From: a virus
Direction: 5' to 3' (one strand)
Length of the DNA: 51,997 nt
IMG/VR virus record: IMGVR_UViG_3300029319_000074
Location: 1-51,997 of that record
The notes under the pieces were generated by a model. It was not told where the DNA came from and ran no database searches. It worked only from the letters and a program-made list of their open reading frames with translations. This document shows, piece by piece, positions 9,607-28,959 of this stretch. Position numbers and translations under genes: made by a program. The first letter of the stretch is position 1, and each line of letters opens with the position of its first letter.

Positions 9607-9757
9607 TCTTATTCTCCTTTTTCTTAAAAATCATATCCCAATTTTTATCAAACTCTTCACGAGTAACATGTCCGGGTTTACCTTGGTTTCTCCTCATAGA
9701 TAATCTACCCTTTTGTTTATGTAAAGCTTTGAATGTTATGTTTCCTAAATGAGGCAT
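9581..9757 (-). CDS. Small basic protein, 58 aa
   Basis: Starts at 9757 (MPHLGNITFKALHKQKG), overlapping the IscU stop as TAATG, and ends 26 nt inside the next gene. Core motif RRNQGKPGHVTREEFDKNW. A good Shine-Dalgarno is absent, so it probably relies on coupled translation from IscU. Resembles small proteins next to the other basic genes here. Function unknown. Confidence 0.55.
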   Translation of the reverse strand: MPHLGNITFKALHKQKGRLSMRRNQGKPGHVTREEFDKNWDMIFKKKENKNAKKKDSD

Positions 9758-10176
9758 TATGTATAATAATTATGTTTTCTATGTGCAACTTTTTGTTCCC
9801 AATCTTTTATTGCTTGTCTTATACTATCTTCTGCTAGTACACTACAATGTAATTTAATTGCTGGTAGTTCTAAAGCTTCTGCTATATCTTTATCTTTAAT
9901 AAGTTTAGCTTCTTCTATAGTTTTACCTTTTAACATATCTACAAACATAGTAGAGGATGCGATTGCACTTCCACATCCATATGTTTTAAACTTAACATCT
10001 TCTATGACATCATTGTTTAATTTAATTTGTAGTTTCATAACATCACCACATGCAGGTGCACCCACCATACCTGTAGCAACATTAGGGTCTTTAGGGTCAA
10101 ACCTTCCAACAGAATGTTTTGCTGGATTGTTTAAAACACTTTCAAACCTATCAACTACCTTTTGTGAATATGCCAT
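9757..10176 (-). CDS. iscU: IscU-type Fe-S cluster scaffold
   Basis: 139 aa, close to bacterial IscU along its whole length (E. coli protein about 128 aa). The cluster ligands are all present: C43 in GAPACGD, D45, C68 in YGCGSAIASS, and H110-C111 in KLHCSVLAED. The HscA-chaperone recognition site, usually LPPVK, is LPAIK at 104-108. An extra eight or so residues (HRKHNYYT) extend the C-terminus. IscU receives sulfur from IscS and assembles [2Fe-2S] clusters for transfer to apo-proteins in the cytoplasm. It is in the late arm among packaging genes, with no other isc or suf gene in the window, so it must work with host IscS/HscA. Confidence 0.93.
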   Translation of the reverse strand: MAYSQKVVDRFESVLNNPAKHSVGRFDPKDPNVATGMVGAPACGDVMKLQIKLNNDVIEDVKFKTYGCGSAIASSTMFVDMLKGKTIEEAKLIKDKDIAEALELPAIKLHCSVLAEDSIRQAIKDWEQKVAHRKHNYYT

Positions 10177-12296: not shown

Positions 12297-12321
12297 AACC
12301 CCCTTGATTGGGGGTTTTTTT
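12297..12321 (+). terminator. Intrinsic terminator after the SprT-like gene
   Basis: AACCCCC (12297-12303), 6-nt loop, GGGGGTT (12310-12316) and a run of seven T residues in all (12315-12321). A textbook rho-independent terminator. It separates the immediate-early sprT-like unit from the middle genes. Confidence 0.92.
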
Positions 12322-12512: not shown

Positions 12513-12563
12513 AATTCACACAAAAGTTACAAAGTTGTCACAAAACTGTCACAATAATATGTT
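12513..12563 (+). promoter_or_regulatory. Phased-repeat promoter A
   Basis: Four 11-bp units (12513, 12524, 12535, 12546), the last two TTGTCACAAAA and CTGTCACAATA, the first two degenerate. TTGTCA of unit 3 (12535-12540) forms a -35 box, followed by a 17-nt spacer and TATGTT (12558-12563). The 11-bp period keeps every unit on the same DNA face. Same design as promoters B and C. It drives the run of small genes from 12614. Confidence 0.75.
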
Positions 12564-12613
12564 CTAATACAGACTGTTTAAATAAATAACTAACACAAAG
12601 GAGGCGTTTAAAC

Positions 12614-12796
12614 ATGACAAGAAAAGATTACATTAAAATAGCAGATGTTTTTAAGTATGCTTATGATGAGGCAGAAGATATAAAGGAAAGAAGTATTCTT
12701 GATATTATGTTAGCTGAAATGATGCATACATTAAAAGCAGATAACAGCAGATTTGATAAGACCAGATTTGTAGACTACATAAACTTTAACAGATAG
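12614..12796 (+). CDS. Small conserved phage protein, 60 aa
   Basis: MTRKDYIKIADVFKYAYDEA start and a DNSRFDKTRFVDYI end. This MTRKDY...NxRFDxxRF pattern belongs to a very widespread small phage protein of unknown function. Ribosome site GGAGG is directly fused to the GTTTAAAC palindrome, which abuts the ATG. Confidence 0.7.
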   Translation: MTRKDYIKIADVFKYAYDEAEDIKERSILDIMLAEMMHTLKADNSRFDKTRFVDYINFNR

Positions 12797-12812
12797 GAGG
12801 CGTTTAAACACT

Positions 12813-12977
12813 ATGGAATATATAATATACAAGGACGGAAAAAAACTTTTTCAAGGAACTGAGGGAGAGATATATACATTTATGCACAGGAAGGAATCCT
12901 TTTCATTGGATTACTGCTGTAAATATATGGGCTACAAAATAGAAGAACTAAAACAGGAGGCGTTTAAACATGACTAA
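12813..12977 (+). CDS. Small protein, 54 aa
   Basis: ATG at 12813 behind GGAGGCGTTTAAAC. Sequence MEYIIYKDGKKLFQGTEGEI then a helix with a Cys pair (DYCCKYMGYKIEEL). Its C-terminal codons read through the GTTTAAAC copy that precedes the next gene (giving AFKHD) and overlap that gene by 8 nt. No known domain. Confidence 0.6.
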   Translation: MEYIIYKDGKKLFQGTEGEIYTFMHRKESFSLDYCCKYMGYKIEELKQEAFKHD

Positions 12978-13323
12978 AAGACCAACAAATACTGATGATG
13001 TAATTGATAGTAGAGATATATTAGATTACATTTGGGAACATGAAGATAATGAAGACTTTAAGGAGGAAGTAGAAGCATTGCAAAAGATAGTGAATCAATA
13101 TTGTGATAACTATAAAGAAGGCTTGGCAGACTTAGAGTTTGGAGTGTTCTTTATTAGAGATGATTACTTTGAAGATTATATGTGGGATTACTTTTTAGAA
13201 TTTAATCAAGTAGATGAGGCTTTAGAGTGCTATATAGATATAGAGGCTTTTGCTCGTGACCAACAATATGAATATGATTGGGTTGACTTTGATGGAGAAC
13301 AATACTGGTATCGACAATGTTAA
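12970..13323 (+). CDS. Acidic ArdA-like protein (putative antirestriction)
   Basis: 117 aa, strongly acidic (clusters such as EHEDNEDFKEEVEAL and DDYFEDYMWDYFLE). The C-terminal pattern YIDIEAFARDQQYEYDWVDF then DGEQYWYR resembles a common phage family often annotated as ArdA-like antirestriction, where acidic residues mimic DNA to block type I restriction enzymes. Early expression from promoter A would suit that role. Similarity is by eye; DNA mimicry is inferred from composition. It ends directly at promoter B. Confidence 0.5.
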   Translation: MTKRPTNTDDVIDSRDILDYIWEHEDNEDFKEEVEALQKIVNQYCDNYKEGLADLEFGVFFIRDDYFEDYMWDYFLEFNQVDEALECYIDIEAFARDQQYEYDWVDFDGEQYWYRQC

Positions 13324-13374
13324 TTGTTACAAGATTGTCACACAATTGTCATAAAACTGTAACAAAAGTATGCT
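13324..13374 (+). promoter_or_regulatory. Phased-repeat promoter B
   Basis: Four 11-bp units in exact register: TTGTTACAAGA (13324), TTGTCACACAA (13335), TTGTCATAAAA (13346), CTGTAACAAAA (13357). The third gives the -35 box TTGTCA (13346-13351), then 17 nt and TATGCT (13369-13374). The clearest example of the design. Serves the gene at 13415 and those beyond. Confidence 0.8.
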
Positions 13375-13414
13375 AACATAACTACATAATTTAATAACAC
13401 AAAAGGAGAAAAGA

Positions 13415-13552
13415 ATGGAAGAATGGAAACAACAAGAATTTGACTTTAACGAATGGCAAGAAGAGGACTTTGAAAGTTTTGAAGACTTGACAGACATTAT
13501 AGTTAATGGTAAGATTAATATAGCTAATGATTGGCTAGAGTTTAAAAACTAG
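13415..13552 (+). CDS. Small acidic protein, 45 aa
   Basis: MEEWKQQEFDFNEWQEEDFE start; Trp/Phe/Glu-rich. It has a GGAG site and directly follows promoter B, so it is the promoter's first product. Its small size and strong negative charge fit an early host-inhibitory protein, but there is no direct evidence. Confidence 0.55.
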   Translation: MEEWKQQEFDFNEWQEEDFESFEDLTDIIVNGKINIANDWLEFKN

Positions 13553-13569
13553 GAGGGCGTTTAAACATT

Positions 13570-13965
13570 ATGAAAAAATATAAAATATATACAGAAAAAG
13601 AATTAGAAATGTATCACTTCTTTGAAGTGCAAAAGGGAAACTTACGAGCATTAAGAGAACAAATAGAGACTCTAAGAAATGTAGTTCAATCTTTGAGTGA
13701 GTCTTTATATACAATATCAGACAATGCTAATTCTCAAAGTAGATATAACGACTATGATATTTTAGATAGAAACGGACAGGAGAGTTTTTGGAGAGCTAAT
13801 GAAGAATTTAAGATAGCTAGAAAAGAAGAAATAGATTCTTACAAACAAAAAGTTTTAGATTCTGATTGTGCTAGATTTGATATTGATGCTACTATGGAAA
13901 AAGTAGAAGGCTATCCAATAAAAGGTACTGAGCATACTATTAATTATAAGGAGGAAAGTAAATGA
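13570..13965 (+). CDS. Coiled-coil protein, 131 aa
   Basis: Predicted helical throughout, with a heptad-like segment at residues 20-60 (NLRALREQIETLRNVVQSL). No catalytic motif. Preceded by AGGAGGGCGTTTAAAC, the variant palindrome ribosome site. Ends in an ATGA overlap with the next gene. Not recognised. Confidence 0.6.
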   Translation: MKKYKIYTEKELEMYHFFEVQKGNLRALREQIETLRNVVQSLSESLYTISDNANSQSRYNDYDILDRNGQESFWRANEEFKIARKEEIDSYKQKVLDSDCARFDIDATMEKVEGYPIKGTEHTINYKEESK

Positions 13966-14111
13966 GTAATCCAATATTAGAATATATAGAGGCAGTCAAT
14001 AAAATATATGCCACGAATCCACCAGAGATTGCTGGAGAGATGGTTAAGATAATGACTGAGGTGGCTATGCCAAAGACAATGTTTAAACAGGAGGAAGAAG
14101 ATGACACTTGA
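13962..14111 (+). CDS. Small protein, 49 aa
   Basis: ATG in an ATGA overlap with the previous stop, and its last codons overlap the next gene by 11 nt. MSNPILEYIEAVNKIYATNP start; a GTTTAAAC copy encodes its MFKQ segment and is followed directly by the GGAGG site of the next gene. Unknown function. Confidence 0.55.
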   Translation: MSNPILEYIEAVNKIYATNPPEIAGEMVKIMTEVAMPKTMFKQEEEDDT

Positions 14112-14376
14112 AATATATACTGATGCTTTAGATGTTTCAAAGTCTGAATTAGAAAACATGACTACAGAACAAAGAGTAGATGAACAATGTTATAACATTT
14201 TTGGAGATAACGATTGGTCTTATGTTAGCTGTGGTCAAAGTGGTTGGTCTAAAGAAGATATAGAAAAACATACAAGTTCAGGAGAATACACTTTATGTAA
14301 GGTTAAAGATATTGATGATTATGAATTTAAAATTATGGTTTATGGTAAGTCAATAGAGGAGGTGTCAGATGAGTAA
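14101..14376 (+). CDS. Small acidic protein, 91 aa
   Basis: Starts MTLEIYTDALDVSKSELENM, with a central NIFGDNDWSYVSCGQSGW. Acidic. The AGGAGG site is 8 nt upstream. No recognised family. It overlaps both neighbours, as is typical of this tightly packed block. Confidence 0.55.
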   Translation: MTLEIYTDALDVSKSELENMTTEQRVDEQCYNIFGDNDWSYVSCGQSGWSKEDIEKHTSSGEYTLCKVKDIDDYEFKIMVYGKSIEEVSDE

Positions 14377-14557
14377 TCATTATAACGACTTGGCATTTGA
14401 AAAGATTATGGAACAAGTAAGAGAAGATGATAACAACGGATTGTTAGAAGAAGAAATCTTTACTTACGAAACAAGGCTTGGACTTCATGCAGATGATGAC
14501 AGGGATGAGATACTGTATCAGATTGCAGAACAAAGAGCATGGGAGTTAGGAGTATGA
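14369..14557 (+). CDS. Small protein, 62 aa
   Basis: MSNHYNDLAFEKIMEQVRED start, then acidic helices ending AEQRAWELGV. Ribosome site GGAGG. Ends in an ATGA overlap. No domain recognised. Confidence 0.55.
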   Translation: MSNHYNDLAFEKIMEQVREDDNNGLLEEEIFTYETRLGLHADDDRDEILYQIAEQRAWELGV

Positions 14558-14718
14558 GTAGAGATATAACAGAAATTATTGATGATTATTGTATGGCTAG
14601 ATATGGTCACACTAACTGGGCTTGGACAGATACTCTTAATGAAGAAGAACAAAGGATGATGTCAGAGCTTGGAGAGTTAGAAGGTAATATTATATTTTAT
14701 TATAAGGAGGTAGCATGA
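14554..14718 (+). CDS. Small protein, 54 aa
   Basis: ATGA-coupled start at 14554 (MSRDITEIIDDYCMARYG) and ATGA-coupled end at 14718. Contains HTNWAWTDTLNEEEQ. Function unknown. Both overlaps and codon continuity support it. Confidence 0.55.
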   Translation: MSRDITEIIDDYCMARYGHTNWAWTDTLNEEEQRMMSELGELEGNIIFYYKEVA

Positions 14719-14930
14719 CTTTATATGGAAGAGTGCAAGAGGTAGCTGTAAGAGACTTTGAGTTCTTACGATTGCTTTCAGAAGGTAGTCTGGACATGTT
14801 AGTAACAAAAGTTACTAATGAAGTTAAGAACACCGAAGGCGAGGACAGTAAGGAAGGCTACATATATCAATGTATTATGGAGGAGGTAGCACACTTAACG
14901 ACTAAAGGTTTGCTACTGGAGATGCAATGA
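14715..14930 (+). CDS. Small protein, 71 aa
   Basis: MTLYGRVQEVAVRDFEFLRL start, predicted mainly helical, AAGGAGG ribosome site. Coupled by ATGA overlaps on both sides. No family recognised. Confidence 0.55.
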   Translation: MTLYGRVQEVAVRDFEFLRLLSEGSLDMLVTKVTNEVKNTEGEDSKEGYIYQCIMEEVAHLTTKGLLLEMQ

Positions 14931-15034
14931 CAAAGACTAAAGAAGTAAACGGAGTACCTATACCAAAACACTTACAACATTTGAGTAAGAAGGCGTTGTT
15001 AGCTTTGATGTATATATTCCGAGGGAAGGGTTAG
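14927..15034 (+). CDS. Very small protein, 35 aa
   Basis: ATGA-coupled at 14927, ending one base before the next ATG. Sequence MTKTKEVNGVPIPKHLQHLS and a short hydrophobic helix. The VPIPKHL motif is reminiscent of other tiny phage proteins, but no function is known. Confidence 0.45.
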   Translation: MTKTKEVNGVPIPKHLQHLSKKALLALMYIFRGKG

Positions 15035-15035
15035 A

Positions 15036-15194
15036 ATGGCATTAAGAACTAAAGTAATACAAAGTATAGACCATGTTAAAAAGTCTACATCACAGGGCAT
15101 AGGAGGGCGTTCTAGGACTATTAAAATATCAACCAAACACATGAACAAAAACAAAAAGCGTTCATATAAAAAATATAGAGGACAAGGAAGATGA
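15036..15194 (+). CDS. Small basic phage protein, 52 aa
   Basis: MALRTKVIQSIDHVKKSTS start and a RSYKKYRGQGR end. This pattern (IDHVKK ... SRT ... KKRSxKxYRGQGR) is recurrent in marine podoviruses. Very basic, likely nucleic-acid binding. The end overlaps the next start as ATGA. Confidence 0.6.
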   Translation: MALRTKVIQSIDHVKKSTSQGIGGRSRTIKISTKHMNKNKKRSYKKYRGQGR

Positions 15195-15424
15195 AAGTAA
15201 AACATTTAAAAACTAAAACAACAATAGAATTAACACCCGAAGGACTACATGTTTGGATTGGTAGGGTAAATAATTTAGAGCATATGTTAGATAACATAAC
15301 AGAAATGAATGATATGTATTTATCAGATGTAAATAATTTAAATATAATAAAGTTTGCATTAACCGATTTATTAAATTTAAAATGGAATAGAGATACATAT
15401 AAATGGGTTAAAGGTAGTAACTAA
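15191..15424 (+). CDS. Small protein, 77 aa
   Basis: ATGA-coupled. Two short beta-like strands (VKHLKTKTTIELTPEGLHVW), then helices ending LLNLKWNRDTYKWVKGSN. Unknown. The stop overlaps the next ATG by one base. Confidence 0.5.
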   Translation: MKVKHLKTKTTIELTPEGLHVWIGRVNNLEHMLDNITEMNDMYLSDVNNLNIIKFALTDLLNLKWNRDTYKWVKGSN

Positions 15425-15795
15425 TGATTAAGAAATTTTTTTATTGGGTATCAGAATCTTGGAATGTGATTATGAATGTAAAATATAATCCACTAAAAAA
15501 TATTAACGAGCCATCAATACAAGCATACTTTATGTTAGTATTGTTTACAATGTGGTCAGTATTTTTTGGATTCATAGCTACATATTATCTAGGTTGGTAT
15601 GGCTACGATACTGTTACAAGCATTGTAGTTCATCTAACTGTATTGATTCCAGTTATATTTACCAATGCAGTATTCAAAGATGCAGAAAGGAATGGCGATA
15701 AGTGGTTCTTGATATTTAAAAGTGAACAAAAGAAACAAAAACTATTTAGCAGAGATGATAATATTGTTAAGTGGGATTTAGATAAGGAAGCATAA
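15424..15795 (+). CDS. Membrane protein, 123 aa, two transmembrane helices
   Basis: Two hydrophobic helices at about residues 33-54 (YFMLVLFTMWSVFFGFIATY) and 64-82 (VTSIVVHLTVLIPVIFTNAV), with a charged C-terminal tail. The only clear membrane protein of the early block. It could serve superinfection exclusion or membrane remodelling, but no family is recognised. It is not a typical holin, since it lies far from the endolysin. Confidence 0.6.
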   Translation: MIKKFFYWVSESWNVIMNVKYNPLKNINEPSIQAYFMLVLFTMWSVFFGFIATYYLGWYGYDTVTSIVVHLTVLIPVIFTNAVFKDAERNGDKWFLIFKSEQKKQKLFSRDDNIVKWDLDKEA

Positions 15796-15796
15796 G

Positions 15797-15973
15797 ATGA
15801 AAGCAACAATGAATAAAGAAGAATACAGACACTTCACAGAGAGTCTAGTAATTATAAAACAAAAAGCAGACATAGATATTGCTCATACTGTTGAGTATCA
15901 AGGCGATAAATTTATAGTAGAGATACTAGATGATGTAAGTTTAGAGGGGCTAGATGAGATATTGGATGTTTAA
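15797..15973 (+). CDS. Small acidic protein, 58 aa
   Basis: MKATMNKEEYRHFTESLVII start. Its stop codon TAA lies within a GTTTAAAC copy (15968-15975). Last gene before promoter C. A beta hairpin (TVEYQGDKFIVEIL) is likely. No family recognised. Confidence 0.55.
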   Translation: MKATMNKEEYRHFTESLVIIKQKADIDIAHTVEYQGDKFIVEILDDVSLEGLDEILDV

Positions 15974-15985
15974 ACAGCATGAAAA

Positions 15986-16036
15986 TTGTCACAATATTGT
16001 CACACAAATGTCATCATATTGTAACAATAGTATGGT
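15986..16036 (+). promoter_or_regulatory. Phased-repeat promoter C
   Basis: Units TTGTCACAATA (15986), TTGTCACACAA (15997), ATGTCATCATA (16008), TTGTAACAATA (16019). Unit 3 supplies the -35 (ATGTCA, 16008-16013), followed by a 17-nt spacer and TATGGT (16031-16036). A GTTTAAAC copy ends 10 bp upstream of the first unit. It drives the ssb and replication genes after a 150-nt leader. Confidence 0.8.
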
Positions 16037-16186
16037 AGACTATGCACATAAAAATATCTTGAGTAACCGAACAAGCCCTCTATCTCCATGTGTTAGTAGG
16101 TTTGGTTCTGACCACGACTCTGAGAGTAGTCGGCTCACAACTCTCATTTATTTAACAACTTCTTAACTAAATCATAGGAGGTATAT
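16037..16186 (+). other. Structured leader of the ssb message
   Basis: After promoter C the leader has an 8-bp helix, AACCGAAC (16065-16072) with GTTTGGTT (16100-16107, one G-U pair), and a CGACT/AGTCG hairpin (16115-16132), then an AGGAGG site before ssb. It could time or boost SSB translation. No known riboswitch class is recognised. Confidence 0.45.
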
Positions 16187-16600
16187 ATGATAGTAGAAGG
16201 AACGGGGTATTGGGCATCTATCAAGACACCTAATACCACTTTTGAACCCGTGTACACTATTAACTTAGTAGTGGAACAGGGTGTTGCTGATGACTTTGCA
16301 AGTCGTGGGCATACAATAAAGCAAATGGATGAAGGTCCGGCTTTGGTTATCAAGAGAAAGGTTAATGGTCCTAATGGTATGGTTAGGAATGCACCCAGAT
16401 TACTTGATTCCAATAAGCAAGACATCAATGTTGCTGTAGGGAATGGCTCTAAAGTTAGAGTTCAATGTAGTGAATACGAATGGGAGTATGCTGGTAAGTC
16501 AGGCAAGAGTCTTGACCTACAAGGTGTACAAGTCGTTGAGCTTGTTGAATACAAAGCTGAAGATGGGTCAGAATTTTTTGATGATAACGAGGAGTTTTAA
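16187..16600 (+). CDS. Single-stranded DNA-binding protein, T7 gp2.5-like
   Basis: 137 aa. Begins GYWASIKTPNTTFEPVYTIN and contains IKRKVNGPNG, then KVRVQCSEYEWEYAGKSG and LDLQGVQVVELVE, an OB-fold pattern of gp2.5-like SSBs in marine podoviruses. The C-terminus is acidic and ends in Phe (EFFDDNEEF), the standard tail by which such SSBs touch polymerase and helicase. It coats single-stranded DNA at the fork and is followed by the replication genes. Confidence 0.82.
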   Translation: MIVEGTGYWASIKTPNTTFEPVYTINLVVEQGVADDFASRGHTIKQMDEGPALVIKRKVNGPNGMVRNAPRLLDSNKQDINVAVGNGSKVRVQCSEYEWEYAGKSGKSLDLQGVQVVELVEYKAEDGSEFFDDNEEF

Positions 16601-16602
16601 TA

Positions 16603-16866
16603 ATGATTATTACCATCAAAAATGATAGTGGCGAAACAGTTTATGATGTTTCAAAGATAGAGAATAGTGATTCCAGAATGAATGCTAGTGTTAGCATAAA
16701 TAAAATGGGAACACTAAATACTTTAGTTGAAGCACTAAACTTTGCTACACAAGGGCATCAAGGTAATCTTGAAACATTACTAGCTGATTGTCCAGAAGCT
16801 GTGGTGGAAACACCAACAGAAGAAGAAACTTCAACAGAAGATGATTCTTTAAACGAGGTATCGTAA
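16603..16866 (+). CDS. Small protein next to SSB, 87 aa
   Basis: 87 aa. Short N-terminal beta region (IITIKNDSGETVYDVSKIEN), a helix, and a Thr/Glu-rich acidic tail (EEETSTEDDSLNEVS). Begins 3 nt after ssb, so it is co-translated with it. Possibly a replication accessory protein. No family recognised. Confidence 0.5.
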   Translation: MIITIKNDSGETVYDVSKIENSDSRMNASVSINKMGTLNTLVEALNFATQGHQGNLETLLADCPEAVVETPTEEETSTEDDSLNEVS

Positions 16867-16884
16867 TATACTAGACTGATTTTT

Positions 16885-17172
16885 CCTCATGTGCGAGGGT
16901 GTTTCAATGTCGATAAATAACAAAACACAGCATTGCGAGGCAACTGTTTTGCTAGTTTCAAAGTCTCTAATAAAAAACTAGCATGAGGTGTGTTGCTTGA
17001 GATTGAGGACATTAAGTTGTCGATAGATTAGAAAGCATACACCTCGACAAGTGGCTAGGAGTGAGCTGTTGTAAAAGCCTTGCGTATATTGACAGTTGAG
17101 TCCTATACAAAAGTAGGTTACAGATGAAAGTAAATAAGAACTACCACCACCATGCACTAGCCACAATTTTTT
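16885..17172 (+). ncRNA. Candidate structured RNA before the primase gene
   Basis: Within a 320-nt gene-free gap. Seen pairings: CCTCATG (16885-16891) with CATGAGG (16982-16988) can enclose GTGTTT/AAACAC (16899/16923), TTGC/GCAA (16933/16940) and GCTAGTTT/AAACTAGC (16951/16975). A rival 13-bp helix joins 16985-16998 to 17033-17045. TTGTCGA in its loop (17017-17023) pairs with TCGACAA (17044-17050), an H-type pseudoknot. GTGGCTAG (17051-17058) closes with CTAGCCAC (17157-17164), which is followed by T6 (17167-17172), as at the end of a discrete transcript. No Rfam class is recognised. The two exclusive helices suggest a switch. Confidence 0.6.
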
Positions 17173-17186
17173 ACAGGAGATAGAAT

Positions 17187-18848
17187 ATGAATACAAAATT
17201 TATTAAACACAAACTACCATGTCCTAAGTGTGATAGTAGTGATGCTGTTTCACTTAATGATAATGGTTCTGCTAAATGCTTTAGCTGTAATACATTTTTT
17301 CCAGACTATGATAATGCGAGTGCGTTTAAACAGGATGATAATATATTAGAAATGAAACAACCAGAAACATCTTTTTTAAATTCTTATACTGGTATCTATG
17401 CACCTTTAACAGATAGAAACATATCTGAGAAGACAGCTAGAAAGTTTGGAGTCAAGGTAGTTAAAGACCACAACGGACAAATCAAACAACACATCTATCC
17501 TTTTCATAATGGAAGTGAGATAGTTGCAACCAAGACTAGGTATGTTGACAATAAAAACTTTTCTTGTAATGGAACTTTTGAAGGTACAGGATTGTTTGGA
17601 GAGCAACTGTATCGTAACAAAGGTGGTAAGTATTTAACTATTACAGAGGGAGAGTGTGATGCAATGGCAGTCTATGAATTGATGCAAGGTAAGTCTAGTG
17701 TTGTATCAATCAAACGAGGGGCTTCATCTGCTGTTAAAGATATACGAGAGAGCATTGAGTTTGTAGAATCATTTGATAATGTTGTTCTTTGTTTTGATAA
17801 TGATAAAGCTGGTATTGAATCTGCAAGACAAGTAGCTAGAATACTTAAGCCAAGTAAAGCTAAGATAATAAATTTACCTAACGGATATAAAGATGCTAAC
17901 GAGATGTTAGCTAAGAAAAAGTTCCAAGAGTTTTCTACTGCATGGTGGGAAGCCAAGACTTATACACCATCTGGTATCATGGAGTTAGCTAGTAAGAAAG
18001 ATGAATGGTTAAACAGAGAAGAGAAAGAAAGTATTGCATATCCTTGGGAAGGTTTAAACAGGAAGTTATATGGTATGCGTAAAGGAGAACTTGTAACTCT
18101 TACTGGTGGTACAGGACTTGGTAAGTCTAGTGTGACTAGAGAACTGGAGCATCATCTTATAAAGAATACAAAAGATAATGTAGGTATCATAGCACTAGAA
18201 GAAAACTGGTTGCGTACTGCAGATGGTATTGTGTCTATCGAAGCTAATGATAGAATATATTTATCAGAGAAACGAGCTAAGTATACAGATGAAGAACTAA
18301 ATACTTTATTTGATAATGCAATAGAAGAAGGGAGAGTTTATATTCATGCACATTTAGGAGCAACAGATATTGATGAGATATTTTCTAAGTTAAGATATAT
18401 CATTGTCGGTTGTCAATGTGACTGGGTGGTGGTTGACCACTTACACATGCTTGTAAATGTGTTGACAGAGGGAGATGAGAGAAGAGGTATCGACATGCTA
18501 ATGAATAGACTTCGTAGTCTGGTAGAGGAAACTGGTGTGGGTATGATACTGGTATCGCATTTGCGTAGGGCATCTGGCGATAGAGGACACGAGAAAGGCA
18601 TACAGGTATCTCTATCTCATCTCAAGGGTTCACAAGGTATAGCACAGTTGTCTGATTGTGTTATAGCATTAGAGAGAAATCAACAAGCAGAAAATCCAGA
18701 TGAAGCTAACATAACTAAAGTAAGAGTATTGAAGTCAAGATATACAGGCGATACTGGGATGGCTTGTAGTTTAAAATATGATATTGATACTGGTAGATTA
18801 CATGAGGTAACAGGGGAGGAAACATTTGACAATGAAGCTGATTTTTGA
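17187..18848 (+). CDS. Primase-helicase, T7 gp4-like
   Basis: 553 aa bifunctional replication protein. N-terminal zinc ribbon C12/C15 and C31/C34 recognises the priming site. The TOPRIM core has E154 (TITEGECDAMA) and D204/D206 (CFDNDKAG). The C-terminal RecA-like helicase has Walker A GGTGLGKSS ending around K313 and Walker B VVVDHLHM with D417. It unwinds DNA at the fork and makes RNA primers for PolA. Length matches T7 gp4A (566 aa). Two GTTTAAAC copies lie inside the gene in different frames. Start ATG has an AGGAGA site 8 nt upstream. Confidence 0.93.
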   Translation: MNTKFIKHKLPCPKCDSSDAVSLNDNGSAKCFSCNTFFPDYDNASAFKQDDNILEMKQPETSFLNSYTGIYAPLTDRNISEKTARKFGVKVVKDHNGQIKQHIYPFHNGSEIVATKTRYVDNKNFSCNGTFEGTGLFGEQLYRNKGGKYLTITEGECDAMAVYELMQGKSSVVSIKRGASSAVKDIRESIEFVESFDNVVLCFDNDKAGIESARQVARILKPSKAKIINLPNGYKDANEMLAKKKFQEFSTAWWEAKTYTPSGIMELASKKDEWLNREEKESIAYPWEGLNRKLYGMRKGELVTLTGGTGLGKSSVTRELEHHLIKNTKDNVGIIALEENWLRTADGIVSIEANDRIYLSEKRAKYTDEELNTLFDNAIEEGRVYIHAHLGATDIDEIFSKLRYIIVGCQCDWVVVDHLHMLVNVLTEGDERRGIDMLMNRLRSLVEETGVGMILVSHLRRASGDRGHEKGIQVSLSHLKGSQGIAQLSDCVIALERNQQAENPDEANITKVRVLKSRYTGDTGMACSLKYDIDTGRLHEVTGEETFDNEADF

Positions 18849-20553
18849 TATAGAAACTGATGACCTAGATGCTACAAAAGTTTGGTGTATTGTAGCAAAA
18901 GAATTAAATGGTAAGTCTTACAGATTTACACCAGATGAAATAGAAGATGGTATAAAACTATTACAAGATGCAGACACTTTGATAGGACATAACATCATAG
19001 GGTTTGACTTGCCGGTTCTTGGTAATCTTTACAACTTTAAATACAAAGGAAAGATTATAGATACTTTAGTTATGTCAAGACTTTACAATCCAGTCAGAGA
19101 GAATGGACATAGCCTAAAGACTTGGGGATATAGATTAGGAATACCTAAACAAGAACAACCAGAGTTTGAAAGTTATACTCCGGCTATGTTAAATTATTGT
19201 GAACAAGATGTAATATTAAATGAAGCTGTATATAAATATTTATTAGATGAAGGTACAGGTTTTAGTAAAGAATCATTTGATTTAGAACAAAAGACTGCAT
19301 CAATTATTAGAGAGCAAGAGAAGACAGGATTTTATTTTGATAGTCAACAAGCTATGACTTTACTTGCTCAACTTAGTCAAAACAAAGCAGATGTAGAAGA
19401 TGAAGTACAGAAAACATTTAAGCCTAAATGGGTAGAAGATAAAATGGTATTGCCCTACACTAATAAAAATGGAGAGTTAAGTAAAAGAGGACTTACAGAT
19501 GATGAGTATGAAAATATTCTTATCTCTGGTAATAGAGAACCTTTTATGCGTAGAAAGTTAGTTGACTTTAATTTAGGTAGTCGCAAACAAATAGGAGAAT
19601 ATCTTATAGACTTTGGTTGGAAACCAGAAAAGTTTACTCCTACTGGACAACCTATTGTAGATGAGGGAACACTTAAAAAGATTACTCATATCAAAGAGGC
19701 TAAACTAATAGCTGATTATTTATTGTATCAGAAAAGAATAGCACAGGTCTCATCTTGGATTGATGAATTAAAAGATGACAGAGTTCATGGTAGAGTTATA
19801 CCTAATGGAACTATTACAGGTAGAATGACCCATAGAAATCCTAACATGGCTCAAGTTCCAAACTTAGGTAGTCCTTATGGTAAAGAGTGTCGTGCTTGTT
19901 GGACTGTACCAGAGGGATATAAACTTGTAGGTATAGATGCTAGTGGACTAGAGTTAAGAATGTTAGCACACTATATGAATGATGCTGATTACATTGAAGA
20001 AGTAGTCAATGGAGATATACATTCTACTAATCAAGAACTAGCTGGTCTTAAAACTAGAGACCAAGCTAAGACATTTATTTATGCTCTAGTATATGGGGCT
20101 GGAGATGCAAAGATAGGTAAGATAATAAATGGAGACATAAATAAAGGTAAAGCATTACGAGAAAGATTCTTCCGTAATTTACCGGCTTTAAAAAAGTTAA
20201 GAGATAGAGTACAACAAGCTTCTAATCGTGGATTTCTAAAAGGGATAGATGGTAGGAAGATATATGTAAGGAGTCAACATGCTTCTTTAAATACACTACT
20301 ACAAGGATGTGGTGCTATTGTAATGAAACAAGCTATGGTAAACTTATATGAACTAATTAAACTTAATACAGTAGATGCTCAGTTTGTAGCGAACATACAT
20401 GATGAGTGGCAACTACAAGTTAAAGAATCTCAAGCAGATTACATTGGTAGATTAGGTGTTGAGTCAATAGAAAAAGTAACAGAGCAGTTTAACATGAGAT
20501 GTGATTTAACTGGTCAGTATAAAGTAGGAGGTAATTGGAGTGAAACCCACTAA
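18832..20553 (+). CDS. DNA polymerase, family A with 3'-5' exonuclease
   Basis: 573 aa from the ATG at 18832 (an in-frame TTG lies at 18826). Exonuclease motif I DIETDD (D6, E8). Polymerase motif A GIDASGLELRM (D369), motif B RDQAKTFIYALVYG (K413, Tyr417), motif C HDEW (D524). Tyr417 corresponds to E. coli Pol I position 762 and T7 Y526. In marine phage surveys Tyr here tends to mark virulent phages. Shorter than T7 gp5 (704 aa), so the thioredoxin-binding loop is probably absent. The gene overlaps the primase-helicase end by 17 nt. It replicates the phage genome. Confidence 0.93.
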   Translation: MKLIFDIETDDLDATKVWCIVAKELNGKSYRFTPDEIEDGIKLLQDADTLIGHNIIGFDLPVLGNLYNFKYKGKIIDTLVMSRLYNPVRENGHSLKTWGYRLGIPKQEQPEFESYTPAMLNYCEQDVILNEAVYKYLLDEGTGFSKESFDLEQKTASIIREQEKTGFYFDSQQAMTLLAQLSQNKADVEDEVQKTFKPKWVEDKMVLPYTNKNGELSKRGLTDDEYENILISGNREPFMRRKLVDFNLGSRKQIGEYLIDFGWKPEKFTPTGQPIVDEGTLKKITHIKEAKLIADYLLYQKRIAQVSSWIDELKDDRVHGRVIPNGTITGRMTHRNPNMAQVPNLGSPYGKECRACWTVPEGYKLVGIDASGLELRMLAHYMNDADYIEEVVNGDIHSTNQELAGLKTRDQAKTFIYALVYGAGDAKIGKIINGDINKGKALRERFFRNLPALKKLRDRVQQASNRGFLKGIDGRKIYVRSQHASLNTLLQGCGAIVMKQAMVNLYELIKLNTVDAQFVANIHDEWQLQVKESQADYIGRLGVESIEKVTEQFNMRCDLTGQYKVGGNWSETH

Positions 20554-20953
20554 AGAAGATAGAAAAAAGTTTGACCTTGATTTAGAGTATGGTCAGATAA
20601 GAGAAGATAAAATAGCAGACATGCTTAATAATAAAAAGATAGAAGTTAAATCTGAAAGAGGTATGTGGATGAAGACAGGTAACATTTGTATTGAGTATGA
20701 ATCTTATGGTAAACCTTCTGGCATCATTACAACTGAAGCAGACTTTTGGTTTCATAATCTTTGTATTGATGATGACATATTCTGTACCTTTATATTTGAT
20801 GTACCAAAACTAAAACAACTTATAGATAAATTAGATTTTAAAAAGTCTGTATGTGGTGGAGACCATAAAGCAAGTAAGATGTGGTTAGTAAATATTAGAA
20901 AATTATTTACATCTGATGTGTTTAAAACATTTAAGGACCTAAAAAATGACTAA
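20540..20953 (+). CDS. Probable PD-(D/E)XK nuclease
   Basis: 137 aa, starting at a GTG (20540) with AGGAGG 8 nt upstream, overlapping the polA stop. Contains LEYGQIREDKIADML and IEVKSERGMW, where E35-V-K37 is a plausible ExK half of the PD-(D/E)XK nuclease core, preceded by acidic D/E residues. This small family is usually placed between polA and the exonuclease in marine podoviruses, where it may resolve or process recombination intermediates. The exact substrate is unknown. Confidence 0.55.
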   Translation: MKPTKEDRKKFDLDLEYGQIREDKIADMLNNKKIEVKSERGMWMKTGNICIEYESYGKPSGIITTEADFWFHNLCIDDDIFCTFIFDVPKLKQLIDKLDFKKSVCGGDHKASKMWLVNIRKLFTSDVFKTFKDLKND

Positions 20954-21740
20954 ACCCCTTGACAAAACTGAATTAGATAAGTATAATAAGTTTACATCCG
21001 AGTCCGGACATTGGTATTCTCTTGAGGGAGAACCTATGTACACTATCATAGGGGCTAATGGTAAAGAAAGAAATACTACACTAAGGGATGCTAAAAGTAT
21101 AGGACTTGTTCCTTCCGTTACTACTATTCTTGGTATGGTTGCAAAACCAGCACTAGAAAACTGGAAGATAACTCAAGCGATAAAATCTGCAGCAACACTT
21201 GACATAGGAGATGAAGAGTCTATGGATTCTTTTGTGTACAGGTGCAAAGCTGATGCAAAACAGATTGGTTCTAAAGCTGCAAAAGAGGGAACTAAAATAC
21301 ATGCACAAATAGAAAAAGGATTTCTTGGCAAAGGTAAATCTAAACCTTACAAGATTATTCAATCATGGTTGGATGAAAACTTTCCTAATGAAGATTGGAT
21401 AGCAGAAGATTCTTTTTGTGCGAAGCAAGGTTATGGTGGTAAGATAGACTTGTATTCTAAGTCAGGGATATTTGTGGACTTTAAAACTAAAGATAACCTT
21501 GAGGGTAAAGAACCTAGTAAATTAGTTTATGATGAACATGGTATGCAACTATCAGCGTATGCTCAAGGTTGTAACATAGATGACCCTACAAGAGTTTCTA
21601 TCTTTGTAGATAGAGCAGATACAAGTATAGTTCTTTGTCATATATGGGATAAAGAATCACACGAGAAACATAAAGAAATGTTTAATAGTATATTAAAATA
21701 TTGGCAACTGGTAAAGAATTATGAATGGCAAGAAATCTAA
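20946..21740 (+). CDS. PD-(D/E)XK exonuclease, RecB/Cas4-like
   Basis: 264 aa. Core GYGGKIDLYSK (D168), then FVDFKTK (D178, K180) forms the PD-(D/E)XK site, followed by the QLSAYAQG helix that is typical of RecB-like/PDDEXK_1 nucleases. The N-terminal part (VPSVTTILGMVAKPAL) is also characteristic. It probably degrades host DNA or resects ends, the role of T7 gp6. A perfect sigma70 promoter lies over codons 5-14. Overlaps the previous gene by 8 nt. Confidence 0.8.
   Translation: MTKPLDKTELDKYNKFTSESGHWYSLEGEPMYTIIGANGKERNTTLRDAKSIGLVPSVTTILGMVAKPALENWKITQAIKSAATLDIGDEESMDSFVYRCKADAKQIGSKAAKEGTKIHAQIEKGFLGKGKSKPYKIIQSWLDENFPNEDWIAEDSFCAKQGYGGKIDLYSKSGIFVDFKTKDNLEGKEPSKLVYDEHGMQLSAYAQGCNIDDPTRVSIFVDRADTSIVLCHIWDKESHEKHKEMFNSILKYWQLVKNYEWQEI
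20958..20986 (+). promoter_or_regulatory. Perfect sigma70 promoter inside exonuclease gene
   Basis: TTGACA (20958-20963), 17-nt spacer, TATAAT (20981-20986), exact consensus, in the first codons of the exonuclease gene (encoding PLDKTELDKYN). It would feed nrdA, nrdB and the cyclase. A chance match is possible but unlikely given the exact spacing. Confidence 0.6.
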
Positions 21741-21963
21741 ACTAATAAGAAGAAAAGCAGAAGAAAGATTATTAGATTGGTTAAGAACCATGACACCAGA
21801 TGGAGAAGATAAATCTAGAATTAACAGAAAAAATTTACATGAGTTTCTTCCTGAACAAACACACATCTTTGCTAATAATAAATTTATGATTAGTGCGTAC
21901 AGTTTAAGATGGTTTTATAAACAAACAAAAAAAGAATATTATGAAAAAAAGAATAAATTATAA
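21721..21963 (+). CDS. Conserved small basic phage protein, 80 aa
   Basis: Core KKSKLIRRKAEERLLDWLRT, then INRKNLHEFLPEQTHIFANN. The pattern (KLIRRKAE..L.DWL.T ... FLPKQTH) recurs in marine podoviruses between the exonuclease and nrd genes. Function unknown. Starts 20 nt inside the exonuclease 3' end. Confidence 0.6.
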   Translation: MNGKKSKLIRRKAEERLLDWLRTMTPDGEDKSRINRKNLHEFLPEQTHIFANNKFMISAYSLRWFYKQTKKEYYEKKNKL

Positions 21964-22222
21964 ATTTAAAGAAAAAGAAATTTTAGAAATAATAAAAACA
22001 TATATTGATACAACTTATACTCAACATTATGGGAAAGGTAAATATCAAGCTACCGATATGATAATAGATGCTGGTCATGGAGAAAGCTTTTGTATTGGTA
22101 ATATTATGAAGTATGCTATGAGATGTGGTAAAAAAGAAAACAATTCTACTCAAGCAGAGTTATACAAAATAATACACTATGCAATCATAGCTTTATATTT
22201 GGAGATATGGCATGATGATTGA
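21941..22222 (+). CDS. DUF3310-like protein, 93 aa
   Basis: The C-terminal segment FCIGNIMKYAMRCGKKENNS followed by ELYKIIHYAIIALYLE matches the GNxxKYxxRxGKK...LxKxxHYxxxxL pattern of DUF3310, a common phage protein sometimes linked to nucleotide metabolism. Its position just before nrdA supports such a link. Start overlaps the previous gene by 23 nt. Confidence 0.65.
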   Translation: MKKRINYKFKEKEILEIIKTYIDTTYTQHYGKGKYQATDMIIDAGHGESFCIGNIMKYAMRCGKKENNSTQAELYKIIHYAIIALYLEIWHDD

Positions 22223-24110
22223 AGATAAAGTAGGAACTAAAAGTTATTTAGGAATTATAATAAACTATGACAAAGAAAAAAACTTTGATAAGTTTAGTAT
22301 AGATACTCTCAAGGATAGATATTTTTGGGATAATGAAACTCATGCACAGGAGGCTTTTGCGAGAGCTGCAGTCTTTGGTGCAACATTTAAAGGAGAAACA
22401 GATTATGTATTGGCTCAAAGACTTTATGACTACAGTTCCGACTGTTGGTTCATGTTTAGCACTCCTATACTTAGTAACGGGGGAACTACTCGTGGGCTAC
22501 CTATCTCTTGCTTTCTTAATTATGTTCCTGATAGCAGGACTGGTTTATCTTCTCATTACGATGAGAATATATGGTTGGCAAGTTCAGGTGGGGGTATCGG
22601 TGGATACTGGGGAGATGTTAGGAGTAATGGTATATCTACTACTCATGGCTCTAGGTCAACTGGTTCAATTCCTTTCATGCATGTAGTTGATTCTCAAATG
22701 TTAGCCTTTAATCAAGGCACAACTAGAAGAGGTTCTTATGCTGCATATATGGATGTAAGTCATCCAGAGATTGAAGAGTTTATCAACATTAGAAAAGAAT
22801 CTGGTGGAGATATAAATAGGAAGTGTTTAAACTTACACAATGGAGTTAATATTACAAACACTTTTTTAGATGCTGTAAAGAATGATGAAGATTGGAGATT
22901 GATTGACCCTAAAACTAATGAAGCAGTTAAGACTATTAATGCTAGAGATTTATGGTTTCAAATAATAAATGCTCGTGCAGAAACAGGAGAACCTTACATG
23001 GTTAATATTGATACCTGTAATAATGCACTACCTAAACAACAAAAAGATTTAGGTTTAGAAATTAGACAAAGTAATTTATGTTCAGAAATAACACTACCAA
23101 CTAATGAAGAAAGAACAGCAGTATGTTGTTTGTCTTCTGTTAATTTAGAACACTTTGATAAATGGTCTAAAGATGAAAACTTTATATCAGATTTAATAAC
23201 TATGCTTGATAATATTATAGAACATTATATTGAGAATGCAGTAGATACATCACAATTAGGAGGATATAGTGCAAATTTTAATAGGTTTAGTAAATATATT
23301 AAAGAAGGTAAAGAAGGATATACTAAATCTGCCTATTCGGCATATAGAGAGAGGAGTCTCGGCTTGGGTGCGATGGGCTTTCATGCATATCTACAGTCTA
23401 GGAACATACCTTTTGAAGGTCTTTTCGCAACTGGATTTAACCACAAAGCTTTTACATATATTAAATCAAAAGCAAAAGAAGCTACTAAACAACTGGCTAT
23501 TGAAAGGGGCGAAGCTCCTGACATTCATGGTACGGGTAGTAGAAATGCTAACCTACTTGCTATTGCTCCTAACGCTAGTAGTGGGATTATATGTAGTGGC
23601 ACTTCTCCTAGTATCGAGCCTTATAGAGCTAATTGCTATACTCACAAAACTTTATCAGGAAGCTATCAAGTTAAGAATAAATATCTTGAAAAAGTTTTAA
23701 AATCAAAAGGATTAAAAGGTAAAAAGCTAGAGGAAACATGGAAAGATATAGCTGGTAGTGATGGGTCAGTACAACATTTAGATATTCTTAATGATAAAGA
23801 AAAAGAAATATTTAAAACAGCAAATGAAATAAATCAAATATGGGTAGTGGAACATGCATATCAACGACAACAATATGTATGTCAAGCACAATCTGTAAAC
23901 TTATTCTTTACTTTACCAAAAGCAACGGAAGGTCAAGATATACATGATGATTACATGCAGTATGTAAATGATGTGCATTGGTATGGTATGAATAAACTTA
24001 AATCACTCTACTATTTTAGGTCTAACGCAGCTAGAAATGTAGAGAATGTAAACATTAAAGTTCCAAGAATCAAGTTAGATGATGTGGAATGTATAGCCTG
24101 TGAGGGGTGA
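22212..24110 (+). CDS. nrdA: Ribonucleotide reductase class I, alpha subunit
   Basis: 632 aa, about 130 residues shorter than E. coli NrdA. The N-terminus lacks the ATP-cone, so dATP feedback control is probably lost. Catalytic residues present: C100 (PISCFLN), N288-C290-E292 (NLCSEITLPT), C305/C306 (VCCLSSVNL) and the redox pair C627/C630 (ECIACEG) at the C-terminus. It reduces ribonucleotides to deoxyribonucleotides, supplying dNTPs for phage replication, with NrdB. Followed by one small gene and nrdB. Confidence 0.94.
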   Translation: MMIEDKVGTKSYLGIIINYDKEKNFDKFSIDTLKDRYFWDNETHAQEAFARAAVFGATFKGETDYVLAQRLYDYSSDCWFMFSTPILSNGGTTRGLPISCFLNYVPDSRTGLSSHYDENIWLASSGGGIGGYWGDVRSNGISTTHGSRSTGSIPFMHVVDSQMLAFNQGTTRRGSYAAYMDVSHPEIEEFINIRKESGGDINRKCLNLHNGVNITNTFLDAVKNDEDWRLIDPKTNEAVKTINARDLWFQIINARAETGEPYMVNIDTCNNALPKQQKDLGLEIRQSNLCSEITLPTNEERTAVCCLSSVNLEHFDKWSKDENFISDLITMLDNIIEHYIENAVDTSQLGGYSANFNRFSKYIKEGKEGYTKSAYSAYRERSLGLGAMGFHAYLQSRNIPFEGLFATGFNHKAFTYIKSKAKEATKQLAIERGEAPDIHGTGSRNANLLAIAPNASSGIICSGTSPSIEPYRANCYTHKTLSGSYQVKNKYLEKVLKSKGLKGKKLEETWKDIAGSDGSVQHLDILNDKEKEIFKTANEINQIWVVEHAYQRQQYVCQAQSVNLFFTLPKATEGQDIHDDYMQYVNDVHWYGMNKLKSLYYFRSNAARNVENVNIKVPRIKLDDVECIACEG

Positions 24111-24111
24111 T

Positions 24112-24330
24112 ATGAAAGTAGAAATATTATATGATGCTTTGTATGATAAATATAAAGCAAAACAAACAGAAGCTTTATGTAATCTTCAAATGTATTTTAT
24201 GGAAGGAGTAGGTGTAGCAGACCATCCTGATACAGTAAAAACTGCAGCTAAATTGTTTGAAGATTATGCAGATGCAACAGAATATTTAAAACTATTAAGG
24301 GAGAGTAAACATGAGCTTATTGGGCAATAG
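24112..24330 (+). CDS. Small protein between nrdA and nrdB, 72 aa
   Basis: Starts at the ATG at 24112 behind GAGGGG. MKVEILYDALYDKYKAKQTE and predicted helical throughout; VADHPDTVKTAAKLFEDYA in the middle. Overlaps nrdB by 20 nt. Possibly a nucleotide-metabolism accessory, but no family is recognised. Confidence 0.55.
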   Translation: MKVEILYDALYDKYKAKQTEALCNLQMYFMEGVGVADHPDTVKTAAKLFEDYADATEYLKLLRESKHELIGQ

Positions 24331-25285
24331 AGATTATTATAAACCATTTGAATATCCATGGATGTTTGACTACTATGTTTTGCAAAATCAAATGCATTGG
24401 ATGCCAGAGTCTGTACCTTTACATACAGATGTAAAAGATTGGCAAGACTTAACTGAGAAAGAAAAGAATTTACTTACACAAATATTTAGATTATTTACTC
24501 AATCAGATGTAGATGTAGCTAGTGGGTACATTGATAAGTATATGCGTACATTTAAAAAACCAGAAGCAAGAATGATGATGTCATCTTTTGCTAACATGGA
24601 ATCAATACATCAACATGCCTACAGTTTACTACTTGATACTGTTGGTATGCCGGATATAGAATACAAAGCTTTTGCTGACTATGAAGAGATGTCAGATAAG
24701 CATGATTATGTTTCTAATTTTAAACCAACTACTAAAGATAAAAGAACTATAGCAAAAACTCTTGCTGTATATTCTGCTTTTACAGAAGGACTACAATTAT
24801 TTAGTAGCTTTGCAATCTTATTAAACTTCCCAAGGTTCGGTAAGATGAAAGGCATGGGTCAGATAGTTACATATTCTATTCGTGATGAATCATTACATGT
24901 CGAAGCTATGACTAAATTATTTAGAGAGTTTATAAAAGAAAATGTAGATATTTGGACTGATGATTTTAAAAAAGAACTTTATGATATTTGTAGACAAATG
25001 GTAGAGTTAGAAGATAAGTTTTTAGATTTAGTATTTGAAATGGGAGACATACAAGGACTAACTAAAAAAGATATGTATGCTTACAATAGATACATAGCTG
25101 ATAGAAGATTACTGCAACTAGGACTTAAAACTAATTATGACCAGAAAGAAAATCCTTTAGGTTGGATTGATGAAGTTACTGGTGTTGAACATCAAAATTT
25201 TTTTGAGGGTAGAGCAACAACATATATGAAAGCCGGACTTAGAGGCAGACAAGATAACATAACATTTAGTGATTTAAATGAATAA
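24311..25285 (+). CDS. nrdB: Ribonucleotide reductase class Ia, beta subunit
   Basis: 324 aa. All iron ligands are in place: D66 (TQSDVDV), E97 and H100 (MESIHQHAY), E159 (FTEGLQL), E193 and H196 (RDESLHVE). The radical Tyr is Y104, four residues after H100, as in E. coli Y122. It carries the di-iron tyrosyl radical that starts nucleotide reduction in NrdA. It ends with an acidic tail (NITFSDLNE) expected to dock on NrdA. Confidence 0.94.
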   Translation: MSLLGNRDYYKPFEYPWMFDYYVLQNQMHWMPESVPLHTDVKDWQDLTEKEKNLLTQIFRLFTQSDVDVASGYIDKYMRTFKKPEARMMMSSFANMESIHQHAYSLLLDTVGMPDIEYKAFADYEEMSDKHDYVSNFKPTTKDKRTIAKTLAVYSAFTEGLQLFSSFAILLNFPRFGKMKGMGQIVTYSIRDESLHVEAMTKLFREFIKENVDIWTDDFKKELYDICRQMVELEDKFLDLVFEMGDIQGLTKKDMYAYNRYIADRRLLQLGLKTNYDQKENPLGWIDEVTGVEHQNFFEGRATTYMKAGLRGRQDNITFSDLNE

Positions 25286-27852: not shown

Positions 27853-28959
27853 CTAATCGCCCTGTTTTATAGTAATTGTTGATGAACTTCCACCATTTAC
27901 TATAATTTGTGTACTCTTTCCATTTTGTACAAGAATAACAGTATAAGAACCTGACTTATCTAAATCTAATCTTACTGTATCTTCTAATGATTTTAAGAAT
28001 GTTATGATATTATCTGTAGCAAAAGTATTAACTTGGGTGTTAGCATCAAAGCCCATAGTTGTTCCTTTTAAATCTAAGTCAGCTTTTAATAAAGTTTCTG
28101 TCTGGTCTAACTCATTTACATCTTGTATTATATCTAACAAGTCTTCAAGAAAGTTTACATCTAAATAATTTATATCTAATTCAGTAAACTCTAACTCATC
28201 TTCTGCAAGATAGTCTACTTCTAAATCATCAAACTCAAGGAAGTCAGCATCAAGAATATTAGAAACGCTACTTCCATCTTCTCCCTGTACATCTATGTTC
28301 TCCTGTGGTGGGGTTACTATTAACATATTATCTATTAACTCTAAAGTAATATCTAATATAACTGGTTTAGTAGGTTCTGTCTCAAACATAGAAACTGTAG
28401 TAGCTTGATAGGGTTTGTTAAGCAATACTTCTCCTATAGCTGTTGCTACTAATATCTCTCCACTAGGAGTACCATCATCTTTGGGCAGTAATATAATTAA
28501 AGACTCTCCAATCTCATTGACTGTAATTGTAAAGTCTGTACCACGAATAGAAACATTAGCACTCGGAGTTGAGATAGCAATGTTCTCTTTGTTTATATTA
28601 TTTAATTTACCAGTAATAAACCTTGCAGTACCACTAGCAAATTGCAAAGCCATTTTAGACTTTGAAGGATTAGGGTCATAGATAAACTCATCTATAACTA
28701 ATTGTGAATGTTCTGTTAGTCTAACTCTAGTATCATTAAGAAATGTTATTCCTATTCTACCATTAGAAGTTTCAACATTGTCATAACTTTCTATACCAAA
28801 AGATAAGGCAGCATCATAAGGTATATCCCTTACAATTCTGCCTGTACCTTTAAGTTCTGTTACGCTTCCTATACTAGCATCCGACTGTTGTGCCACCATC
28901 GTTTTGGATAACACAGACAGTACCAGAGTTGCCAGTAGAAAGTATCTTGAGCCAATCAT
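27853..28959 (-). CDS. FecR-domain exported protein
   Basis: 368 aa. N-terminal signal peptide (residues about 1-23). The FecR domain spans about residues 30-175, with NGRIGITFLNDTRVRLTEHS, then FASGTARFITGKL and IRGTDFTI. A Leu/Asp-rich repeat-like segment (about 235-290, LEFDDLEVDYLAEDELEFTEL pattern) follows, then a C-terminal beta domain. FecR domains sense or relay envelope signals. The signal peptide overlaps the curlin gene 3' end by 86 nt. In bacteria FecR-domain genes often neighbour CHASE2-cyclase genes, as here across the convergent junction. Exported to the periplasm. Confidence 0.8.
   Translation of the reverse strand: MIGSRYFLLATLVLSVLSKTMVAQQSDASIGSVTELKGTGRIVRDIPYDAALSFGIESYDNVETSNGRIGITFLNDTRVRLTEHSQLVIDEFIYDPNPSKSKMALQFASGTARFITGKLNNINKENIAISTPSANVSIRGTDFTITVNEIGESLIILLPKDDGTPSGEILVATAIGEVLLNKPYQATTVSMFETEPTKPVILDITLELIDNMLIVTPPQENIDVQGEDGSSVSNILDADFLEFDDLEVDYLAEDELEFTELDINYLDVNFLEDLLDIIQDVNELDQTETLLKADLDLKGTTMGFDANTQVNTFATDNIITFLKSLEDTVRLDLDKSGSYTVILVQNGKSTQIIVNGGSSSTITIKQGD

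Follow-up and report, generated by a model that had tools for sequence, protein, structure and literature searches.

Putative Pho boxes at early and replication promoters of a marine phage, probably served by PhoB of a SAR11 host

Three promoters (A, B and C) in a virus record with a length of 51,997 bp and a G+C content of 33%, which was analysed whole and is called the window here, carry arrays of four 11-bp direct repeats on the + strand. On the grounds of their sequence these arrays are Pho boxes, that is to say, tandem 11-bp sites for putative binding of the response regulator PhoB. It is very probable that they are Pho boxes of the host, most likely SAR11, and that phosphorylated PhoB located at them would drive the early operons and the replication module of the phage.

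According to the mechanism proposed, when phosphate is scarce the host PhoR would phosphorylate PhoB, which would line up head to tail along the array, on all four 11-bp units and always on the same side of the helix. In this position it would substitute for the -35 and bring RNA polymerase with sigma70 to an extended -10 situated 11 nt downstream. Two early operons for small proteins would be expressed as a result, together with a replication module comprising single-stranded DNA binding protein (SSB), primase, polymerase and ribonucleotide reductase (RNR), and the phage would probably time or boost its own genes in this way via the host PhoB. Identity with the SAR11 pst motif, period, spacing, conservation in phages and replacement of the -35 at site C can be read directly from the DNA; PhoB would bind to the arrays, it would activate instead of repressing, and the benefit for the phage would be a replication tuned to phosphate-starved hosts. 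In one published case of SAR11 infection the host pstABCS, phoB and phoU were raised (PMC12753301), and PhoB may thus be active in infected cells. The coordinates of the main features are summarised in Table 1.

Table 1. Pho-box arrays, -10 elements and transcription units in the window
Feature	Positions	Strand	Details
Intrinsic terminator	12300..12321	+	upstream of promoter A, isolates A from SprT-like gene
Pho-box array A	12513..12556	+	units AATTCACACAA AAGTTACAAAG TTGTCACAAAA CTGTCACAATA
Extended -10, promoter A	12560..12568 (hexamer 12563-12568)	+	TG-t-TCTAAT; 11 nt after CTGTCA hexamer
Small-ORF operon behind promoter A	12614..13323	+	60, 54 and 117 aa
Pho-box array B	13324..13367	+	units TTGTTACAAGA TTGTCACACAA TTGTCATAAAA CTGTAACAAAA
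Extended -10, promoter B	13371..13379 (hexamer 13374-13379)	+	TG-c-TAACAT
Small-ORF operon behind promoter B	13415..15973	+	first = 45-aa acidic protein
Pho-box array C	15986..16029	+	units TTGTCACAATA TTGTCACACAA ATGTCATCATA TTGTAACAATA
Extended -10, promoter C	16033..16041 (hexamer 16036-16041)	+	TG-g-TAGACT
Replication module behind promoter C	16187..25285	+	SSB-like, primase/helicase, DNA polymerase A, RNR large and small subunits

The phage encodes a portal and an adaptor of the SU10 type, terminase, primase/helicase, DNA polymerase A and a class I ribonucleotide reductase. The closest relatives of its DNA polymerase are those of the Pelagibacter phages HTVC115P (50% identical), HTVC103P and HTVC104P (around 50% identity), which were isolated on the SAR11 strain HTCC7211, and from this similarity we infer that SAR11 is the likely host. 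Promoter C precedes the SSB-like gene, the first of the replication module, and no terminator was found between promoter A and this gene; read-through from A and B could therefore add to C, and the dependence on the array at C need not be absolute. The acidic protein that follows promoter B is also found behind it in several relatives.

Several other elements were observed in the window. A 17-bp ribosome-binding cassette, AGGAGGCGTTTAAACA, precedes three small ORFs, at 12598, 12794 and 12954 (0.1 matches expected), and TTTAAAC recurs near 13553, 14080 and 15968. The small acidic ORF at 12970-13323 (117 aa) has a sub-threshold match to the antirestriction protein ArdA (21.2 bits vs a cut-off of 27). 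Downstream of promoter C and ahead of the SSB-like gene there is a conserved structured leader (16058-16150), present in 19 aligned relatives regardless of the promoter, which contains the invariant sequence CTATCTCC and shows double-sided changes in 5 out of 17 predicted pairs. No Rfam family was detected in the region, the leader having no match at E values up to 1. It may be an RNA through which the replication operon regulates itself. On the - strand, curli genes were identified at 28874-30825 (CsgG, E 8e-51; CsgF, E 1e-20; and a weak curlin-repeat match), and a protein with a NifU N-terminal domain (9757-10176, E 4e-40) lies among other genes of that strand.

When four TGTCACA units in 11-bp steps are scored out of 28, arrays A, B and C reach 24, 25 and 25, respectively, whereas ten first-order Markov sequences of 200 kb each (2 Mb), with the dinucleotides of the window, gave at most 20. 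No other place in the window scores at least 20. The repeats seen by the initial annotation in the sequence are consequently real and far above chance. The two upstream units of array A (AATTCACACAA and AAGTTACAAAG) are degenerate. The same annotation had distinguished these direct repeats from CRP half-sites, and this distinction was confirmed: CRP sites (the inverted palindrome TGTGA-N6-TCACA) are ruled out because the units are direct and each of the three arrays has a lower score on the reverse strand. A Pho box was considered because both the unit sequence and the 11-bp period resemble one. Pho boxes are defined as tandem 11-nt direct repeats with seven conserved positions and four less conserved ones, CTGTCAT being the best-conserved motif of the E. 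coli Pho box (PMC4415409), and the tandem 11-bp direct units of A, B and C agree with this definition.

The comparison with phosphate promoters of the likely host was carried out with SAR11 genomes gathered via a 16S signature, from which 29 distinct pstS upstream regions were chosen by protein homology only. Using a matrix built from the twelve phage units and 2021 SAR11 windows as background, all 29 regions exceeded the 99th percentile of this background at period 11 and 25 of them the 99.9th, compared with just 0-4 above the 99th percentile at periods 9, 10, 12 and 13; the 29 sequences share descent and so are not fully independent. Motif discovery on the host pstS regions alone gave a log-likelihood of 672 for period 11 vs at most 277 for any other period, with the consensus yTGTAAYAAAA. 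The three top loci in the window for this host-derived motif are precisely C (38.0), B (36.3) and A (10.9, the lowest of the three arrays, with two weak units); 2 Mb of Markov sequence gives no score above 9.5. The phage arrays are thus composed of units like those of the host phosphate promoters, although they are nearer to TGTCACA than the degenerate SAR11 pst units. Related to this, PhoB was found above the curated cut-off in four of six SAR11 genomes, so the inferred host group encodes the regulator.

In 118 whole SAR11 genomes, the pattern TGTMAY repeated three times at 11 bp gave 22 matches and the reversed control pattern none. Eleven of the matches are followed by pstC and nine by pstS (in one case on a short contig); of the other two, one precedes the gene for phosphonoacetaldehyde hydrolase and one lies elsewhere. 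One PstC and one PstS were confirmed by family model and the remainder were identified from near-identical N-termini. The match elsewhere (L374, in SAR11 genome G060) is an array of the pstS promoter type without pstS behind it; no PstS match was found in this genome, and the array is perhaps a relict of pst loss. Exact TGTCA repeated three times at 11 bp occurred in only 1 of 247 SAR11 genomes, about as expected by chance, and the site falls towards the 3' end of a gene for a chaperonin-like protein. This pattern is too strict because SAR11 units are mostly TGTAAY. The analysis yields a sequence model of the SAR11 Pho boxes, of which no published description was found in the literature searched.

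The position of the -10 differs from the one first assigned. The initial annotation described promoters with unit 3 as the -35, a 17-nt spacer and TATGnT as the -10. The TTGTCA/ATGTCA hexamer of unit 3, the 17 nt and TATGnT are literally there, and the promoter assignment is maintained, but the conserved -10 is the hexamer located 5 nt downstream, after TGn. Unit 3 is consequently 22 nt away from the -10 and cannot be kept as the -35. In A, B and C the -10 hexamer lies 11 nt after the TGTNA hexamer of unit 4, just as in E. coli phoA (TTGTCA-11-TATAGT) and pstS (CTGTCA-11-TATTTT), counted from the last TGTCA hexamer. The placement at TATGnT was rejected on the basis of a spacing control, of relatives with an altered TATGnT and of the alignment at site C. 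In IMG/VR, 27 stretches combine three units with an extended -10 at the proper distance (several with TGa-TACAAT) and only one with the -10 displaced by 5 nt. In L045, L048 and L473 TATGnT is altered to TGTGnT, while TGn and the first T, the A and the last T of the hexamer are kept; this comparison is partly biased, since many rows were retrieved with a pattern containing TRTGNTNNNNT. The -10 of promoter A reads TGt-TTCAAT in L002 and TGa-TTCAAT in L003. In promoters B and C only 4 of the 6 positions of the -10 hexamer agree with the consensus. No consensus hexamer occupies the -35 position: the array stands in its place, at a fixed distance from a sigma70 -10. The phasing of the sites on one face of the DNA and their overlap with the polymerase site, both stated in the initial annotation, agree with this arrangement.

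Site C allows a comparison of relatives with and without the array. Five relatives (L001-L005) have it before the SSB-like gene, and their aligned -10 reads TGgTAGACT or TGtTAGACT. A sigma70-like match is present there in 67 of 78 relatives (lenient score), most of these matches being TTGACA-17-TGnTANNNT or TTGACA-17-TATAAT-like; those without the array show TTGACA-17-TGnTAGACT, TGnTACAAT or similar before the SSB-like gene, TGaTACAAT being found as well. As judged from this alignment, the consensus -35 is exchanged for the array at site C, which fits an activator-dependent promoter. Because the replication module has lost a consensus -35 and gained a Pho array, PhoB could even be a near-obligate host factor of the lineage, with replication gated by the phosphate status of the host and a promoter cassette mobile among early genes, but this extension seems unlikely.

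The arrays stand before varying early genes in related marine phages, and the search for the consensus in relatives recommended by the initial annotation revealed that the register of the repeats is conserved. Variants of array A are found in L002 and L003; array B is kept in L002, L003, L005, L466 and L467; a near-copy of array C precedes another gene in L024/L351; and another version occurs at various genes of L020, L045, L046, L048, L049 and L051. Among the matches listed, most cases of an array plus a -10 precede genes. In an independent match to the array with a -10, on a 354-kb viral contig from a jumbo phage, pstS (L470:7681-8760, - strand) lies behind a three-unit Pho array and an extended -10. 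On the other hand, no array was found in the parts read of the genomes of the pelagiphage isolates HTVC103P, HTVC104P and HTVC115P, and among isolated phages the short promoters had no BLAST matches other than weak ones to unrelated sequences. Searches for TGTCA repeated four times across all viral contigs returned mixed families, many being other tandem repeats, and TGTMAY repeated four times behaved likewise. Viral contigs with 11-bp arrays of other units were also seen (L269, L274, L315; L279, L299, L303, L309, L318), the units being CTGTCAGTTTn shortly upstream of TATAAT-like boxes, and GTGTCAAATTG; these arrays possibly serve other regulators.

The regulator itself could be different. The initial annotation suggested a dedicated activator or repressor, possibly phage-encoded, and the presence of three array copies in one phage together with some early small proteins of no known function would suit it. 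However, discovery on the host pst promoters alone gives the same motif, period and units, in the host genomes the motif occurs almost only at phosphate genes, the array is also found before pstS of the jumbo phage, and the phage record revealed no DNA-binding domain of the OmpR/PhoB type. This suggestion is therefore unsupported and very unlikely, the regulator being most likely the host PhoB. OmpR-family regulators other than PhoB likewise bind direct repeats, and SAR11 genomes encode two further members of the OmpR/PhoB family; nevertheless, it is extremely doubtful that one of them (ChvI- or OmpR-like, for instance) uses the arrays, given the host occurrences at pstS, pstC and the phosphonatase gene and the agreement of the 11-bp TGTCA unit and the 11-nt spacing with the E. 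coli PhoB promoters.

The role of the arrays could also be another one. PhoB-type arrays might be repressor sites, or a sponge by which replicating phage DNA titrates PhoB off the host promoters, as the overlap with the polymerase site and units closer to TGTCACA than those of host pst could indicate. This is highly improbable, since the spacing is that of the activated E. coli phoA and pstS, the lack of a consensus -35 at the array fits an activator, and most of the listed arrays with a -10 stand before genes. Finally, the repeats could be incidental, and the promoters plain sigma70 ones whose -35 is unit 3 and whose -10 is TATGnT; TTGTCA-17-TATGTT/TATGCT scores 9/12 in support of this (A and B listed). 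The probability of this is close to negligible: the relatives with TGTGnT retain TGn-TAnnnT, the -10 of site C aligned with TTGACA-17-TGnTAGACT/TACAAT sits 5 nt downstream, and sigma70-like sites were no more frequent in a promoter scan than in shuffled sequence (28 vs 28.9).

Activation by the host PhoB would have ecological implications. Few biological entities of the sea are as abundant as SAR11 and its phages. Surface waters are often poor in phosphate, and phage genes wired to the host phosphate regulator would tie nutrient state directly to viral replication; such wiring would need no phosphate-acquisition gene in the phage. No report of the use of PhoB sites by SAR11 phages was found in the literature searched, most subscription journals being outside its scope.

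The promoters described here resemble those of E. coli phoA and pstS and of SAR11 pstS and pstC in their tandem 11-bp direct units with a TGTCA/TGTAA core and in the lack of a consensus -35, and, as in the E. coli promoters, 11 nt separate the last TGTNA hexamer from the -10. They differ from bacterial Pho promoters in preceding phage early and replication genes and in their stronger TGTCACA-like units; none of the host pst promoters examined showed the extended TGn -10 of the phage arrays. The phage belongs to the same marine group as the HTVC103P-type pelagiphages (PMC8528129), with which it shares the order of the replication module and the DNA polymerase, whereas HTVC103P, HTVC104P and HTVC115P lack the arrays in the genome parts read. 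The use of PhoBR by phages is already known from cyanophages, in which Pho boxes have been assigned to pstS of P-SSM2 and to the DNA polymerase and other genes of the Synechococcus phage S-PM2d; PhoB bound the DNA polymerase promoter of the latter in vitro, although not every Pho box predicted in a cyanophage is bound by PhoB (PMC10976474). Both cases involve a marine phage with sites for the host PhoBR, and replication genes are among the PhoB-bound targets of cyanophages. However, the cyanobacterial motif is PyTTAAPyPyT/A (PMC10976474), the phage family and the host are others, and binding was tested there, whereas here it is predicted from sequence; furthermore, the arrays of the present phage are canonical tandem ones that displace a consensus -35.
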